From the NCBI GenBank assembly GCA_029882215.1, contig JAOULC010000016.1, positions 1 to 64,000 of the forward strand: a stretch of 64,000 bases of DNA, read 5' to 3'. The translations under genes were made by a program, and so were the position numbers. The number at the start of each line of letters is the position of its first letter. Within the stretch, counting starts at the first letter, position 1. The stretch is from Gammaproteobacteria bacterium. Lineage in GTDB: Bacteria > Pseudomonadota > Gammaproteobacteria > SZUA-229. The notes below the pieces were generated by a model that worked only from the letters and a program-made list of their open reading frames with translations, had not been told where the DNA came from and did not search any database. This document shows, one piece after another, positions 52,573 through 63,752 of this stretch.

Positions 52573-53829
52573 ATGAGTATTAAAAATGCATTTTATGCAC
52601 AGTCCGGTGGTGTAACAGCCGTGATCAACGCCTCAGCCTGCGGCGTTATTGAAACCGCGCGTAAAAACAAAGATAAGATCGGCACAGTTTACGCGGGTCG
52701 TAACGGCATTATTGGCGCCCTGGAAGAAGATTTAATCGATACCGACTTAGAATCAGCAGCCGATATTGCTGCGCTAAAACATACGCCATCGGGTGGTTTT
52801 GGTTCATGCCGCTTTAAACTCAAAAGCCTGGAAGATAACAAAGCCGAATATGAGCGTTTAATCGAAGTTTTTAAGGCTCATAATATTGGCTATTTTTTCT
52901 ATAACGGCGGCGGTGATTCGGCTGACACTTGCTACAAAGTGTCGCAGCTTTCTGAAAAGATGGGTTACCCGGTGCAGGCTATTCATGTACCTAAAACAGT
53001 TGATAACGATCTGCCTATTACCGATAACTGCCCGGGATTTGGCTCTGTGGCTAAGTACATTGCTGTGTCTGCGCTTGAAGCCTCTTATGATGTTCGCTCA
53101 ATGTGCAAAACTTCCACCAAAATTTTCGTACTGGAAGTCATGGGTCGCCATGCAGGCTGGATTGCAGCGGCCGGTGGTCTAATCGAAGACGAAGGCATAC
53201 CAGTGGTTATTCTGTTCCCTGAAGTAGAATTTAATCAGGAAAAGTTCATGGCCAATGTTAAAGCAAAAGTCGAACAACACGGTTTCTGCACGATTGTTGT
53301 TTCTGAAGGCACACACTGGCCTGATGGCAAGTTCCTTGCTGAACAGGGCACGCGTGACTCTTTCGGTCATGCTCAGTTAGGCGGTGCCGCACCGGTTGTT
53401 GCTAATCTAATCAAAGAATCTCTGGGCTATAAATTCCACTGGGCTGTTGCCGATTATCTGCAACGTGCCGCACGTCATTTGGCATCGCGCTCAGATGTTG
53501 AGCAGGCTTACGCACTGGGAGAAAAGGCGGTTGAATTTGCGCTGGAAGGAGATAACTCCATCATGCCAACGGTTAACCGCCTGTCTAACAACCCTTACAC
53601 CTGGGAAATTGGCAAAGCACCTTTAGCAGAAGTGGCTAATGTTGAGAAAATGATGCCCATGGATTTCATCACTGATGATGGGTTTGGCATTACTCAGGCC
53701 TGTAAAGATTATCTGTACCCGCTGATTGAAGGAGAGGCATACCCGCCTTACAAAGCCAATGGCATGCCAGACTACGTGACATTAAAACTGCAGTCTGTTG
53801 GCAAAAAGCTCGAAATCTTTACGGTTTAG
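52573..53829 (+). CDS. pfp: Pyrophosphate-dependent 6-phosphofructokinase
   Basis: A 418-residue phosphofructokinase that reversibly transfers phosphate between PPi and fructose 6-phosphate. PPi rather than ATP use is shown by the Asp-containing YNGGGDSADT loop and the Lys in PKTVDNDLPITDN, where ATP enzymes have Gly. GFGSVAKYIAVS, VLEVMGRHAGWIAAAGG and the substrate segment with EGTHWPDG complete the fold. In methanotrophs and sulfur-oxidising symbionts this enzyme works in both glycolysis and a PPi-sparing Calvin-type cycle. It has a GGAG site and is followed by adk and hppA. Confidence 0.95.
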   Translation: MSIKNAFYAQSGGVTAVINASACGVIETARKNKDKIGTVYAGRNGIIGALEEDLIDTDLESAADIAALKHTPSGGFGSCRFKLKSLEDNKAEYERLIEVFKAHNIGYFFYNGGGDSADTCYKVSQLSEKMGYPVQAIHVPKTVDNDLPITDNCPGFGSVAKYIAVSALEASYDVRSMCKTSTKIFVLEVMGRHAGWIAAAGGLIEDEGIPVVILFPEVEFNQEKFMANVKAKVEQHGFCTIVVSEGTHWPDGKFLAEQGTRDSFGHAQLGGAAPVVANLIKESLGYKFHWAVADYLQRAARHLASRSDVEQAYALGEKAVEFALEGDNSIMPTVNRLSNNPYTWEIGKAPLAEVANVEKMMPMDFITDDGFGITQACKDYLYPLIEGEAYPPYKANGMPDYVTLKLQSVGKKLEIFTV

Positions 53830-53984
53830 ACCTAAATGGCTCGACTCAATTCGTGTATCAGCAAATGGCGGTCGCTTAGCTGCAGTCGCTCGATAGCAAT
53901 ACATGGACGCCGGTACAGGCCAGTAAAATGACACTTGACAGTACAAACGGATTAATTGCTATGCACCTTAAGCTCGCTAGCGGG

Positions 53985-54171
53985 TATAATCGCTGCGCCG
54001 CCAAAATGGTGCCTGGTAAAATTAACCGCAATAGCAGCAAGCTTGCTGCCACACGGTTAATTCATAACCAGAACCCTGATGAGCAACGGCTAATTAAGCC
54101 TGCCGTCGAGTTTACGAGTGCTTTTACAATATAATCAAAACAAAAAATCAGACTCAAATGTCTGATTTTTT
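53985..54171 (+). ncRNA. Candidate small RNA or adk leader between pfp and adk
   Basis: A perfect TATAAT (53985-53990) is followed by a nested hairpin: outer AATTAACCG/CGGTTAATT (54020-54028 and 54054-54062) enclosing a 16-bp palindrome GCAGCAAGCTTGCTGC (54034-54049). A strong terminator closes the unit at 54142-54171. Promoter, structure and terminator span about 180 bases without a credible protein. The -35 is weak. It may be a small RNA or an adk attenuator. Confidence 0.45.
54142..54171 (+). terminator. Terminator 25 bp before adk
   Basis: A6-TCAGAC, a 6-base loop and GTCTGA-T8 make a perfect 12-bp stem on the + strand, just upstream of the adk GGAG site. adk therefore either has a promoter overlapping it or depends on read-through. 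Confidence 0.88.
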
Positions 54172-54175
54172 TTGA

Positions 54176-54832
<657 letters not shown>

Positions 54833-55429
54833 TACTTGTTTTGCTCTCGCCATCAGGCGGGAGCATCTTACGCCCTCAAAGCTTCAGCCTCACTGCATCT
54901 TTCACTTAATTATCCGGTCTAAAAGTCATTAAAGTGATTGTTATTACCATCATAAAAATGCTCAGGTATTTTCATTATCAGCTACCTTCACAAAAGCTAT
55001 ATTAGCAAATACTGCCCGATACTTTTCTTAAAAACGGTGTTTGAAAATCTGCATTCATTTTTCTTTTCAGGGCTTAAACAAACTATATAAGAAACGTCCC
55101 GCAACAGGAAATCACATCAAGCTTCATACCGGTAAAATCAAAACACCGTATGTACCCCACAGGTTCTGTTATAAATATCAATACTTAAATATTCTTATCT
55201 GTTGATATACATCATTAGATTATAACAAACTTTACCGCATTACTTTTTCATAGCCACATATAAAAAAAATCATTAGAAAACAACTTTCATTTGTCACTCG
55301 TCAGGTGTAATTTGCATAGTCTGATAAAGCGTTTCAACGATCTACCGAAGGGATAACAATCATTGGCTGCCAGCTGTATGGCTTCCGTGCAATTGTATTC
55401 CCGCTATTAAAATAATAAGGAGGGCTACA
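54833..55429. other. 597-bp AT-rich region between adk and hppA
   Basis: No credible gene. A 9-bp stem (54843-54864, GCTCTCGCC/GGCGGGAGC, one G-T) follows adk and may end its message. A weak promoter-like pair, TTGTCA (55291) and CATAGT (55315), lies about 110 bases before hppA. The hppA ribosome-binding site AAGGAGGG is very strong. Confidence 0.5.
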
Positions 55430-57466
55430 ATGACCGCACTGACTTTCAGTTTGCTTTGCGCAAGCATCGCCATTATCTATGGCATAGTTTCAACTTTTAG
55501 CATCATGAAAAAAGCCGAAGGCAATGAAGAGATGCAACGCATCTCCGGCGCCGTGCGTGAAGGCGCCATCGCTTATCTGTCGCGCCAGTACACCACGATT
55601 GGAATAGTAGGTATCATACTATTTGTTATCATGGGTTTTGCACTTGGCTGGGCATCAGCAATCGGCTTTGCCATCGGTGCCATACTTTCCGGTGCTGCCG
55701 GTTATATCGGCATGCACGTTTCGGTACGCTCAAATTCAAGAACCGCTGAAGCAGCGAGACAAGGCATTAACCCTGCCTTACAGGTTGCCTTCAAAGGCGG
55801 CGCTATCACCGGCATGCTGGTGGTTGGATTAGGCCTGCTCGGTGTTGCCGGCTATTATGCCGTTTTAAGTAATATGGGCATATCACAGGACAAGGCACTA
55901 CATGCTCTGGTTGGTCTGGCCTTTGGCGGCTCACTCATTTCAATCTTTGCCCGTTTAGGCGGTGGTATCTTCACTAAAGGTGCCGATGTTGGCGCTGACA
56001 TTGTCGGTAAGGTAGAAGCCGGCATTCCGGAAGACGATCTTCGCAACCCTGCCTGCATTGCAGACAATGTTGGTGACAACGTGGGTGACTGTGCCGGTAT
56101 GGCTGCCGACCTGTTTGAAACATACGCGGTAACCATCATCGCAACTATGTTATTAGGTGGTTTGTTATTAAAAGATGTCGGTGAGCTCGCCGTGACCTAC
56201 CCATTAGTTCTGGGTGGTGTTTCCATCATAGCGTCAATCATTGGCACATTCTTTGTTAAAACATCTGATGGCACAAAAATCATGAACGCTCTTTACAAGG
56301 GCACTGTCGTCTCAGCTGTTATTTCGGCAGTGGCCTTTTATTTTGTCACCAACCAGATGATGGGGGCAGTTAGTTTGCAACTGGCAAACGGCAACACTGT
56401 CGGTGCGACTGAATTTTATTATGCGGCACTGATTGGACTGGCTCTGACTGTCGCCATGATTGTCATAACCGAGTATTACACCGCCACTAAATATGCACCG
56501 GTAAGACACATTGCCGCGGCCTCCACCACCGGTGACGGCACAAATGTTATCGCCGGCTTAGGTGTGTCGATGAGATCAACCGCACTGCCTGTGCTGGCAG
56601 TCTGTGCATCCATCTGGGGAGCCCATCATCTGGCTGGTTTATACGGTATTGCCATCGCCGCAACAGCCATGCTGTCAATGACCGGTATTATCGTTGCGCT
56701 GGATGCTTACGGCCCGATCACAGATAACGCTGGCGGTATCGCTGAAATGGCCAACCTGCCGGAAGACGTACGTGAAACCACTGATGCACTGGATGCAGTA
56801 GGCAACACAACCAAAGCCGTTACCAAAGGCTATGCCATTGGCTCAGCTGGTCTTGCAACACTGGTACTGTTCGCTGATTTCACTAACACATTAAGCGCCG
56901 CCGGGCATGCCGTGTCGTTTGATTTATCAAACCACATGGTCATTATCGGCCTGTTTATTGGCGGACTTATTCCCTATCTGTTCGGTGCAATGGCAATGGA
57001 AGCCGTTGGCCGTGCCGCCGGTGACATTGTCAACGAAGTGCGCCGCCAGTTCAGAGAAATGCCGGGTATTATGGATCGCACACAAAAGCCTGACTACTCT
57101 AAAGCGGTTGATATGTTAACCAAAGCGGCGATCAAGGAAATGATTATTCCTTCTTTGCTACCGGTAGCCGTACCCATTATCGTTGGTCTGACATTAGGTG
57201 CCGAAGCACTTGGCGGGGTATTAATCGGTACGATTGTTACCGGCTTGTTCGTTGCTATTTCTATGACCACAGGTGGTGGTGCATGGGATAATGCGAAGAA
57301 GTACATCGAAGACGGCAACCATGGTGGTAAAGGCTCTGATGCGCATAAAGCAGCGGTAACCGGTGATACCGTGGGTGATCCGTACAAAGATACAGCAGGT
57401 CCTGCGATCAACCCGTTAATTAAGATCATGAATATCGTGGCACTGCTACTGGTGCCATTGCTATAG
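55430..57466 (+). CDS. hppA: K+-independent proton-pumping inorganic pyrophosphatase
   Basis: A 678-residue membrane H+-PPase with about 16 helices that couples PPi hydrolysis to proton export, or makes PPi from the gradient. The PPi-site motifs are [51 protein letters not shown] and the C-terminal [18 protein letters not shown]. Lys in DAVGNTTKA (about residue 462), where K+-dependent enzymes have Ala, marks it as K+-independent and H+-specific. Terminated by a strong hairpin. Confidence 0.96.
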
Positions 57467-59855: not shown

Positions 59856-59879
59856 CAGATACAAAATTCAGCTAATAAA

Positions 59880-61070
59880 CTAGCTGATGCTCCTGTAATA
59901 GTCCATCAGTATCTGTGCTACCTCAGGGCGTGAAAATTCCTTTGGCGGCGCAATACCATTGCCTAATAATTCACGAACCTTTGTGCCTGATAATAATACA
60001 AAATCTTCCTTGCTATGATCAGGTGCTTCGCACATCATCACAACCTTATCCAGCTTCTTAGAGTAAGCCGTGTGGTCTGCACGGAAGATTTCGATATCCA
60101 GTGCACCAGCAGGAACCTGGTCATCAAAAATAGTTTGTGCATCAAAGGCACCATAGTGATCACCCACACCAGCATGATCGCGACCAATGATAAAGTGCGT
60201 TGCGCCCATATTTTGACGGAATACTGCGTGTAATACGGCTTCACGCGGGCCGGCATATAACATGTCAAAACCGTAACCGGTTACCATCGCGCTGTTTTCA
60301 GGAAAGTACAGTTCAACCATTTTACGAATCGCTGCATCGCGAACCGGTGCAGGAATGTCACCCGCTTTTAGCTTACCCAGCAGCATATGGATTACCAGGC
60401 CATCACAACCTAAACGTTCCATGGCCATATGACACAGTTCTTCGTGTGCCAGATGCATCGGATTACGCGTCTGGAAAGCCACAATTTTTTTCCAGCCACG
60501 CTCTGCAATTTCATTTCTGATTTCAACAGCCGTGCGGAATGTATCTGGGAATTCAGTCTGGAAGTATGAAAAGTTCAGTACTTTAATCGGACCCGACAAT
60601 ATAACATTACCCTGTGCATTAAACGCATCGACTCCGGGGTGTGCTTCATCAGGACTTGCTGCGTAAACCTTATCGGCAATCAGTTTTTTCTCATCTGCCG
60701 TTAATGTTTCAACCGCTTCCACATCCATCACAGCGACCACAGGGTTACCTTCAACATTCGGATCTTTGAGTGCTATGCGGTCACCGGCTTTAATACTGCC
60801 CGCATCATCAAGCAGATTTAAAACCGGTGTTGGCCAAAACAAACCCGATGTTGTTTTCATGCTTTCAGCAACACTGATTGCGTCTGCCTTATTCATATAG
60901 CCTGTCAGGGGGTTGAAATAACCACCACCCAGCATCACTGCATTGGCTGCTGCGGCCGAACTCACTACAATTGAGGCCAGGCCTTCTGCTTCTTTTTGTA
61001 AGGCTTCATTTTCAGCTGTATCGTAAACAAATAATGGATTCAGCTCATCTGAGCCATGTGGACGAATCAT
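59880..61070 (-). CDS. sat: Sulfate adenylyltransferase (homomeric, dissimilatory type)
   Basis: A 396-residue ATP sulfurylase of the PUA-plus-catalytic type used in sulfur oxidation, not the CysDN type. In sulfur oxidisers it runs APS + PPi to ATP + sulfate. PHGSDELNPLFV opens the N-terminal PUA-like domain with GGGYFNPLTGYM; the catalytic domain has QTRNPMHLAH (~199-208, the HxxH motif) and IGRDHAGVG (~294-302). There is no C-terminal APS-kinase domain. The AGGAG site is good. It follows the GalT-like gene in the same direction with a 228-base gap. Confidence 0.95.
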   Translation of the reverse strand: MIRPHGSDELNPLFVYDTAENEALQKEAEGLASIVVSSAAAANAVMLGGGYFNPLTGYMNKADAISVAESMKTTSGLFWPTPVLNLLDDAGSIKAGDRIALKDPNVEGNPVVAVMDVEAVETLTADEKKLIADKVYAASPDEAHPGVDAFNAQGNVILSGPIKVLNFSYFQTEFPDTFRTAVEIRNEIAERGWKKIVAFQTRNPMHLAHEELCHMAMERLGCDGLVIHMLLGKLKAGDIPAPVRDAAIRKMVELYFPENSAMVTGYGFDMLYAGPREAVLHAVFRQNMGATHFIIGRDHAGVGDHYGAFDAQTIFDDQVPAGALDIEIFRADHTAYSKKLDKVVMMCEAPDHSKEDFVLLSGTKVRELLGNGIAPPKEFSRPEVAQILMDYYRSIS

Positions 61071-61298: not shown

Positions 61299-62375
61299 TT
61301 AGTCAATATCGACGTCTCTTAGTTGCTGTGCTGCCTCCTCCGGTGAAATAGTGCTGACGAACAGCCCTGAGCCTAATTCAAACCCCGTCGGTATCGACGT
61401 TCTTGGACATATCTCCAGATGCCAGTGGTAGCTGTCTTTACAGTCTTTATATTCATCTGCCCTGGGAATTGAATGCAAAAAGAAATTATATTGCGCGCCG
61501 CCAATCACCTTTTCCAGCCGGCTCATTGTTCGTTTAACAACCCTCGCCAAATCCTGCAAATCTTCCTGCGTGACTTTAGTAAAATCACTTTCATGGGTCA
61601 GCGGCATGATATGTACTTCCCACTCATACCGGCTGGCAAAGGGTTTGATCGCAACAAAACGTTCACCTTTCTCTACCACATACTGGCCTACATTGATTTT
61701 GCGCCTTACCTCACCCGACTGACGATCATATATCGTTGCCTCGTAGGTCAGTGCCTCATCAATCAGACTGCAAAATACACAGTGATTATGTTTACGGTAA
61801 TATTGCTTTGAATGCTCCACCTCGTTAATCACATTCTCAGGTACCACTGGCATTGCGATAATCTGACTGTGTGTATGCGGAATACTGGCACCGGCCGCAG
61901 GACCAAAATTTTTAAATACCAGCGTATACTTCAAGCGCTCATCCGACTCATATAATTCACTCATGCGCTGACGATATGCCGCAAACAGCATTTGTAAATG
62001 CTCCTCACTCATTTCATATACTGAAATACCATGCTGATGGTGATCGATAATAACCTCATGCCGGCCATAACCACTGATAACCTGCTGCAGACCAAAATTA
62101 ATGGCCGTCTCATCACTGTCATCACCCAGAATTGGAAACAAATTTTCGACTATCCGAACACTCCAGTTTTTTTCATTCGGAAAAGCCGCAATCGTCGCTG
62201 GCGTTTTTTCTTCATTGCCCTTACAAAAGGGGCAGGTTTCAACATGCTCACGCGTATCTCTTGGTACCACTTCTTCTTTTTTACGGGGACGCATGCCTCG
62301 CGCAGTTGCAACCAGTACTGACTCACTCGGTACTATCGGGTTAATTCTTATTTCGCGGACAGTCTCGTCAGCCAT
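61299..62375 (-). CDS. GalT-like nucleotidyltransferase, candidate APS:phosphate adenylyltransferase
   Basis: A 358-residue member of the HIT/GalT superfamily. Zinc-type cysteines are in CPFC (~residue 47), a second CVFC (~196) follows, and the active site is GASIPHTHSQIIAMP (~160-174), where typical GalT has HPHGQ. NKNWSVRIVENLFPIL-like and ICPRTSIPTGFELGSG segments match the GalT fold. I use the Met at 62375 (AGGA upstream) rather than 62390. The database-like name would be galactose-1-phosphate uridylyltransferase, but no Leloir genes are nearby and sat is adjacent. The ADP sulfurylase (APAT) of Thiobacillus denitrificans is known to be related to GalT, so an APAT role is plausible. Confidence 0.85.
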   Translation of the reverse strand: MADETVREIRINPIVPSESVLVATARGMRPRKKEEVVPRDTREHVETCPFCKGNEEKTPATIAAFPNEKNWSVRIVENLFPILGDDSDETAINFGLQQVISGYGRHEVIIDHHQHGISVYEMSEEHLQMLFAAYRQRMSELYESDERLKYTLVFKNFGPAAGASIPHTHSQIIAMPVVPENVINEVEHSKQYYRKHNHCVFCSLIDEALTYEATIYDRQSGEVRRKINVGQYVVEKGERFVAIKPFASRYEWEVHIMPLTHESDFTKVTQEDLQDLARVVKRTMSRLEKVIGGAQYNFFLHSIPRADEYKDCKDSYHWHLEICPRTSIPTGFELGSGLFVSTISPEEAAQQLRDVDID

Positions 62376-62390
62376 GAAGGTATCCTGCAT

Positions 62391-62691: not shown

Positions 62692-62967
62692 ATGGATAAG
62701 AACAATATGCATAGCCCCGCTGTTAATTTAAATGTCGAAAATATTGAAGATTCAATTCAGACACTGACTGAGTTCGCTAATGAACCGCACTTGACCCCTT
62801 TAATAGCGATATTAGAAGCCTTGAAACAGGATATAAATAGTGAAGCGCTGCTGGCACAGCTTATTGATACATGGAGAAACCTTGGTATATATCAGGGCAC
62901 TGTTTTAACTTATCTGCCTCATTTCTACACTCTGATTCCTGATGATATTTTTGGTGAGAACGGCTAA
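62692..62967 (+). CDS. Hypothetical 91-aa protein
   Basis: A short acidic, helical, cytosolic protein of unknown family (NVENIEDSIQTLTEFAN, LIAILEALKQDINSEALLAQLIDTW, ending YTLIPDDIFGENG). No signal peptide or membrane helix. The ribosome-binding site is weak, but the frame is followed by a good terminator, supporting a real gene. Confidence 0.62.
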   Translation: MDKNNMHSPAVNLNVENIEDSIQTLTEFANEPHLTPLIAILEALKQDINSEALLAQLIDTWRNLGIYQGTVLTYLPHFYTLIPDDIFGENG

Positions 62968-63089: not shown

Positions 63090-63248
63090 TTAAGGCTTTT
63101 TAGGTGTCTGGTATGGTACTTCTTTCTGGAAGCTTTTCCATTCAGTCGTATAACCAATAACAAACTGACCAGGAACAACTTCTTTCTGTGTTGTTGTTAC
63201 ATACTCAGTTACGCCAGCTGGCACCTTAGGTCTGCAAAATTCAGCCAT
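63090..63248 (-). CDS. Small 52-aa protein of unknown function
   Basis: I do not recognise it. The product starts MAEFCRPKVPAGVTEYV and ends in a lysine/proline tail; it has one Cys near the N-terminus, many beta-branched residues (TTTQKEVVPGQFVIGYTTEW) and no signal or membrane helix. The Met at 63248 is chosen because GAGGAG lies just upstream; a longer frame starts at 63314. It is shielded by a strong terminator and lies between the HIT gene and the sulfur genes. Confidence 0.7.
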   Translation of the reverse strand: MAEFCRPKVPAGVTEYVTTTQKEVVPGQFVIGYTTEWKSFQKEVPYQTPKKP

Positions 63249-63338: not shown

Positions 63339-63752
63339 CTATCGCTTATAATGCGCCTTTTTTGCTATCACATGCCGCACGCCACCTTGTGGGTTTTCAA
63401 CATCACCCTGATAACGCGGAATGATGTGGATGTGGACATGAAAAATACTCTGTCCTGCTGCCGGACCTATATTAACCCCAATATTATAACCATCTGGATG
63501 AAACTCCTCATCAATGTTTTTTTTCTCCTCATTAATAAGTTTCATGCAGGCTGTAATTTCTTCCGGCGTCAGCTCAAAAAAGCTGGCGACATGACGCCTG
63601 GGAATAACCAACGAGTGCCCCGGACTCACCCCATAGGTATCACGCGCACTATAAGCCAGCTCATTAGTAAGCGATACGCCCTGAGGGTCAGTACAAAATA
63701 AGCACGGGTTATTAGGGTCGCGTTTTTTTTCTATCTTTTCTTCAGATGACAA
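63339..63752 (-). CDS. HIT family nucleotide hydrolase
   Basis: A 137-residue HIT protein with the His triad in FHVHIHIIPRY, a CLFC pair near the N-terminus, GHSLVIPRRHVASFFEL and NIGVNIGPAAGQS. HIT proteins hydrolyse adenosine 5'-phosphoramidate, dinucleoside polyphosphates or related adenylates; phosphoramidases also act on APS-like compounds in some organisms. The start is a TTG at 63752 with a weak site; Met is absent nearby. It is the third adenylate-related nucleotidyl enzyme in this stretch, after sat and the GalT-like gene. Confidence 0.9.
   Translation of the reverse strand: MSSEEKIEKKRDPNNPCLFCTDPQGVSLTNELAYSARDTYGVSPGHSLVIPRRHVASFFELTPEEITACMKLINEEKKNIDEEFHPDGYNIGVNIGPAAGQSIFHVHIHIIPRYQGDVENPQGGVRHVIAKKAHYKR

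Follow-up and report, generated by a model that had tools for sequence, protein, structure and literature searches.

The window analysed here, 64,000 nt of a gammaproteobacterial contig that extends 5 kb beyond it, carries on its minus strand a gene of the galactose-1-phosphate uridylyltransferase (GalT) superfamily. This gene lies upstream of sat, which encodes a homomeric (sopT-type) ATP sulfurylase and is directly followed by a stem-loop terminator (Table 1). In a preliminary description, the GalT-like gene had been proposed to encode adenylylsulfate:phosphate adenylyltransferase (APAT), on the basis of its HTHSQ motif, the adjoining, co-directional homomeric sat, and the lack of galK, galE or galM nearby. 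Each of these features was recovered: HTHSQ occupies residues 172-176, sat exceeds the cut-off of its family model, and tblastn (E<=1) across the whole contig, window included, found no match to galK, galE or galM.

The apr-sat cluster and its surroundings

The genes for APS reductase, aprBA, lie 4.2 kb upstream of the GalT-like gene on the same contig and strand, with an AprA match of 1086.7 bits in the profile search. The minus-strand order is aprB, aprA, a gene for a 120-aa protein, a gene that we take to be FKBP/SlyD-like (Pfam gave no match), a TPR protein gene, a HIT-domain gene, the GalT-like gene and sat. A second locus, L001, has the same order of aprBA, FKBP-like, HIT, GalT-like and sat genes. 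The host thus possesses the genes of indirect (Apr) sulfite oxidation, with aprA and aprB on the contig, sat adjacent and dsrA elsewhere in the genome. Because dsrA is present together with aprBA, the organism most likely oxidises sulfur by the reverse-Dsr/Apr route. Its genome (G000, 98% complete) also contains glgC, and no galactokinase (TIGR00131) match and no second GalT homologue were found in it.

Table 1. Positions of the genes and features discussed (window numbering; apr genes in contig numbering, contig C23)
Feature	Position	Strand	Basis
adk, adenylate kinase	54197..54832	+	Pfam ADK 1e-54
Membrane H+-pyrophosphatase	55430..57466	+	Pfam H_PPase 6.9e-270
Stem-loop terminator after sat	59887..59868		
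sat, homomeric (sopT-type) ATP sulfurylase	59880..61070	-	NCBIfam TIGR00339 390.1 bits, cut-off 323
GalT-superfamily ORF, putative APAT (probable apt)	61299..62375	-	ORF call, Pfam, clade, insert, active-site residues
Clade-specific insert SLIDEALTYEATIYDRQSGEVRRKINVG, residues ~208-235	61686..61769	-	Multiple alignments; gap against 1z84
91-aa ORF	62692..62967	+	
52-aa ORF	63093..63248	-	
HIT-domain protein	63339..63752	-	Pfam HIT 9.5e-23
aprA	66610..68517	-	
aprB	68517..68999	-	

Two small reading frames lie near the GalT-like gene. The 52-aa frame (MAEFCRPKVPAGVTEYVTTTQKE...), between the HIT and GalT-like genes, is near-identical at L001 (5078-5233), and the 91-aa frame, which belongs to no known family and runs in the opposite direction to the cluster, is conserved in L001 (5464-5721) and L002 (5264-5536). 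A few kb from sat, a phosphofructokinase-family gene, presumably of the PPi type, stands in a row with adk and the H+-pyrophosphatase gene on the plus strand (52573-57466).

The GalT-like reading frame spans 61299-62390 on the minus strand from its first ATG (363 aa), or 358 aa from a second ATG at 62375 (MADETVREIR...). The second ATG is the likelier start, since an AGGA lies 7 nt upstream of it and the orthologue in L002, 91% identical, begins at the equivalent methionine. The end of 62375 chosen earlier is therefore probably the better one, with the frame itself opening to 62390. The calculated mass of the 363-aa form, whose numbering is used throughout, is 41.8 kDa; the purified APAT of Thiobacillus denitrificans reportedly measures 41.4 kDa per subunit.

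Family placement and clade-defining residues

Pfam GalP_UDP_transf (PF01087) matches the protein at 1.9e-13, while the NCBIfam galT model TIGR00209 (80.8 bits, cut-off 102.1) and PRK11720 (109, cut-off 448) stay below their thresholds, as does Pfam Ap4A_phos_N (1.7e-4, 21.6 bits, cut-off 23.1). The expectation that automatic annotation would call the gene galT is therefore borne out by the Pfam label but not by the NCBIfam cut-off; none of the NCBIfam models matching the protein bears an APAT family name. The nearest solved relative is 1z84, Arabidopsis At5g18200 (2.8e-53), with E. coli GalT at 1.8e-13 over the full length of the protein.

A superfamily tree (IQ-TREE, LG+C20 PMSF) unites the window protein and its Thiobacillus homologues in one clade with support of 100/99. 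This clade falls within a supergroup (100/100) that also holds the Arabidopsis ADP-glucose phosphorylase, together with some relatives from actinobacteria and clostridia; the branching order inside the supergroup is not settled, and some branches are long. The GalT proteins of E. coli, human, haloarchaea and Pyrobaculum all fall apart from it, so that the tree comparison proposed in the preliminary description groups the protein not with functional GalT but with the sole GalT homologue of Thiobacillus. Membership is sharply bounded, with 64-91% identity within the clade and less than 37% for the next match. Other supergroup relatives were encountered on two Streptomyces plasmids (L131, L133), each adjoining a glycosyltransferase gene; one of the two bears the annotation galactose-1-phosphate uridylyltransferase.

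Alignment to E. coli GalT places the nucleophile at His174. Residues C53, C56, H120, H172, H174 and Q176 are invariant in all 62 clade members, as is E190, and H306 and H324 are invariant wherever the sequences cover them. The window protein thus shares with E. coli GalT (1hxp) and human GALT (5in3) the fold family, the equivalents of H164, H166 and Q168, and a CxxC Zn-type site. It differs from them in its clade and in the loss of D78, K311, Y316 and E317: D78 is leucine in every clade member, as in Arabidopsis ADP-glucose phosphorylase, and the other three are substituted in all or nearly all members. The threonine of HTHSQ, kept in 61 of 62 members, marks the clade. The broader pattern HxHSQ was rejected as a diagnostic motif, being found as HSHSQ in Arabidopsis ADP-glucose phosphorylase and as HPHSQ in Pyrobaculum GalT.

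A second mark of the clade is an insert that makes its proteins about 19 residues longer at this point than GalT and ADP-glucose phosphorylase. In multiple alignments, none of the GalT and ADP-glucose phosphorylase sequences compared contained it, and in the window protein the region forms an unaligned gap against 1z84. An AlphaFold model computed from six sequences reached a mean pLDDT of 44.7, too poor to place the insert. Relatives 33-36% identical to the window protein, from family f198 of another class of the phylum (L136-L139), are GalT-superfamily proteins with HPHSQ in which the insert is likewise missing.

Occurrence among sulfur oxidisers

The anchor to the CHARACTERISED enzyme is provided by the genus Thiobacillus. 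Passages in PMC6382920 and PMC5461723 report the T. denitrificans APAT, described by Bruser, Selmer and Dahl (2000; doi 10.1074/jbc.275.3.1691) as cited through PMC6382920 and PMC8551704, in a nucleotidyltransferase family with GalT. Exactly one PF01087 gene was found in 34 of 40 Thiobacillus genomes and two in none, and aprA matches occurred in 36 genomes of this same set. All 30 Thiobacillus loci checked encode clade members with HTHSQ, 69-74% identical to the window protein, and 29 of them contain the LIDEAL motif of the insert. Since APAT belongs to the GalT family and the only GalT homologue of Thiobacillus lies in the clade, the T. denitrificans enzyme would, by elimination, be the orthologue of the window protein, provided that T. 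denitrificans resembles the rest of its genus. The two proteins have in common the GalT superfamily, a sulfur-oxidising host with AprBA and Sat, and a single GalT homologue per genome. They differ in that the window's host is a gammaproteobacterium outside Thiobacillus in which the gene forms a cluster with aprBA, HIT and sat, whereas in Thiobacillus sp. MAG_77 the gene stands among housekeeping genes (der, hflX, hflKC). Identity to the Thiobacillus orthologues is about 72%.

Among 274 gammaproteobacterial genomes drawn evenly, 42 from 31 families carried the gene (match above 400 bits), at 64-76% identity outside the window's own lineage; the next matches scored at most 160 bits. It was the sole GalT-superfamily gene in every carrier scanned for PF01087. 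The gene aprA, counted when over the cut-off or as a fragment at a contig end, was present in 36 of 42 carriers and 49 of 232 non-carriers (Fisher 1e-15); the genomes are related, so that P values overstate the independent evidence, although 31 families are involved. For dsrA the counts were 38/42 and 55/232, and for aprA and/or dsrA 40/42 and 58/232. Homomeric sat was detected in 32 of 35 carriers tested, and galactokinase above the curated cut-off in none of 12. The 49 aprA-positive genomes without the GalT-like gene include two of the window's own family; the gene is therefore optional among AprBA bearers. No clade member was found in viral contigs and phages, the relatives found on plasmids did not exceed 32% identity, and outside Gammaproteobacteria in the GTDB sense only the insert-less f198 group was found. 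An apparent link of the gene to H+-pyrophosphatase was discarded, as the latter tracks sulfur oxidation generally.

Linkage to apr and sat recurs in a few other genomes. In G126 the gene lies within about 4 kb of sat and an apr locus of divergent type (AprA 46% identical), and in G102 and G219 within about 7 kb of apr/sat, again with a HIT gene. In most member genomes it adjoins neither apr nor sat: about 22 carry it between genes that we take to be dapA/nlpB and gcvR/bcp/phoH, and Thiobacillus near presumed der/hflX. Linkage is thus supporting rather than general evidence for an APAT role. In G044 (L103), a similar phosphofructokinase gene and adk lie 1-2.5 kb from the GalT-like gene, adk at about 2.5 kb.

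Proposed function and competing explanations

Taken together, the clade, its tie to sulfur oxidation, the linkage to aprBA and the lack of a galactokinase support the reading that the gene encodes APAT ("ADP sulfurylase", EC 2.7.7.5), a predicted orthologue of the T. denitrificans enzyme, with a probability of roughly 0.86. We infer that the substrates would be APS and phosphate; the direction of the reaction and a ping-pong mechanism are suggested by comparison with other GalT-superfamily enzymes and by the literature on APAT. In this scheme, AprBA would convert sulfite and AMP to APS during reverse-Dsr/Apr sulfur oxidation. His174 of APAT would then take the AMP moiety of APS, releasing sulfate, and phosphate would attack the adenylyl-histidine to yield ADP. 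Adenylate kinase would convert ADP to ATP and AMP, the latter returning to AprBA. Sat would act in parallel, as the pyrophosphorolytic exit from APS, with pyrophosphate in place of phosphate. APAT would thereby allow APS to be harvested when pyrophosphate is short, and the H+-pyrophosphatase would belong to the PPi economy that Sat, not APAT, relies on.

An unlikely alternative is that the protein is an ADP-glucose phosphorylase (ADP-glucose + Pi -> ADP + glucose-1-P) engaged in glycogen turnover, its sulfur neighbours being incidental. At5g18200 (1z84, 1zwj, 2q4h, 2h39) is the closest solved relative and shares with the window protein the supergroup, the catalytic histidine and glutamine within HxHSQ, NL rather than ND at N83-L84, and GFE(L/I)G(T/S)G. 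Its adenylyl, rather than uridylyl, transfer and its phosphate acceptor also resemble the proposed window activity. It nevertheless lies outside the well-supported clade of the window protein, lacks the insert, has R and F at the positions of E190 and H324, and acts on a sugar nucleotide where APS is proposed for the window protein. Overall, glgC is commoner in carriers (34/42) than in other genomes (121/232), and all six carriers without aprA have it, which leaves room for ADP-glucose. This link between glycogen and the GalT-like gene vanishes within sulfur oxidisers, where glgC shows no association with it (p=0.25), whereas the aprA association persists in both glgC-positive (2.5e-8) and glgC-negative (4e-7) genomes. 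Moreover, all eight carriers without glgC have aprA, and five of them (G044, G185, G102, G219, G141) are near-complete.

Rather improbable, too, is a dinucleoside-polyphosphate (Ap4A) phosphorylase or broad adenylyl transferase for which APS would be secondary, with the neighbouring HIT protein perhaps handling APS. In vitro, both HIT-superfamily proteins and Ap4A phosphorylases are known to use APS, and superfamily kinship, the sub-threshold Ap4A_phos_N match and the HIT gene kept beside the GalT-like gene in two clusters are consistent with such a role, which would also account for carriers without aprA. The strong tie to sulfur oxidisers and the elimination argument from Thiobacillus speak against it, as does the restriction of the HIT gene, among the neighbourhoods fetched, to the window lineage and G102/G219. 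The HIT gene, which in two separate clusters (the window and L104/L110) adjoins the GalT-like gene, may in its own right encode a second APS- or nucleotide-handling enzyme. A true galactose-1-phosphate uridylyltransferase can practically be dismissed: the GalP_UDP_transf match and the resemblance to E. coli GalT along the whole protein are outweighed by the missed NCBIfam galT cut-off, the position outside the GalT groups, the substituted hexose- and uridine-side residues, the genome without galactokinase, and the failure to find galK, galE or galM near the gene.

If APAT served only AprBA, two of the six carriers lacking aprA would be left unexplained, namely G043 (100% complete) and G184 (98%), which possess the GalT-like gene, sat and dsrA; the APAT-like enzyme may therefore not always serve AprBA. 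In both genomes (L082, L081), sat lies 5 kb from an H+-pyrophosphatase gene. It is conceivable, at long odds, that in some bacteria, above all these two, Sat and APAT form a sulfate-catalysed cycle that makes PPi. ATP and sulfate would give APS and PPi, and APS and phosphate would give ADP and sulfate, for a net conversion of ATP + Pi to ADP + PPi. If this were true, the PPi produced would go to the H+-pyrophosphatase and a PPi-dependent phosphofructokinase, both encoded beside the locus in the window.

Measurements of APAT activity in sulfur oxidisers go back decades; the reaction releases sulfate from APS and saves its energy as ADP. The gene is rarely listed in genome surveys, and reviews depict APAT as another option besides Sat (PMC8551704, PMC8232776). 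With APAT already known from Thiobacillus, the window gene is, judged from its sequence and context, a well-supported candidate for a further member of the family in a sulfur-oxidising gammaproteobacterium. Defining the clade by HTHSQ together with the LIDEAL...VGQ insert would allow annotation of a second energy-conserving exit from APS. With the putative APAT clade present in 31 gammaproteobacterial families and optional among AprBA bearers, the choice between phosphate and pyrophosphate in harvesting APS would become directly testable.
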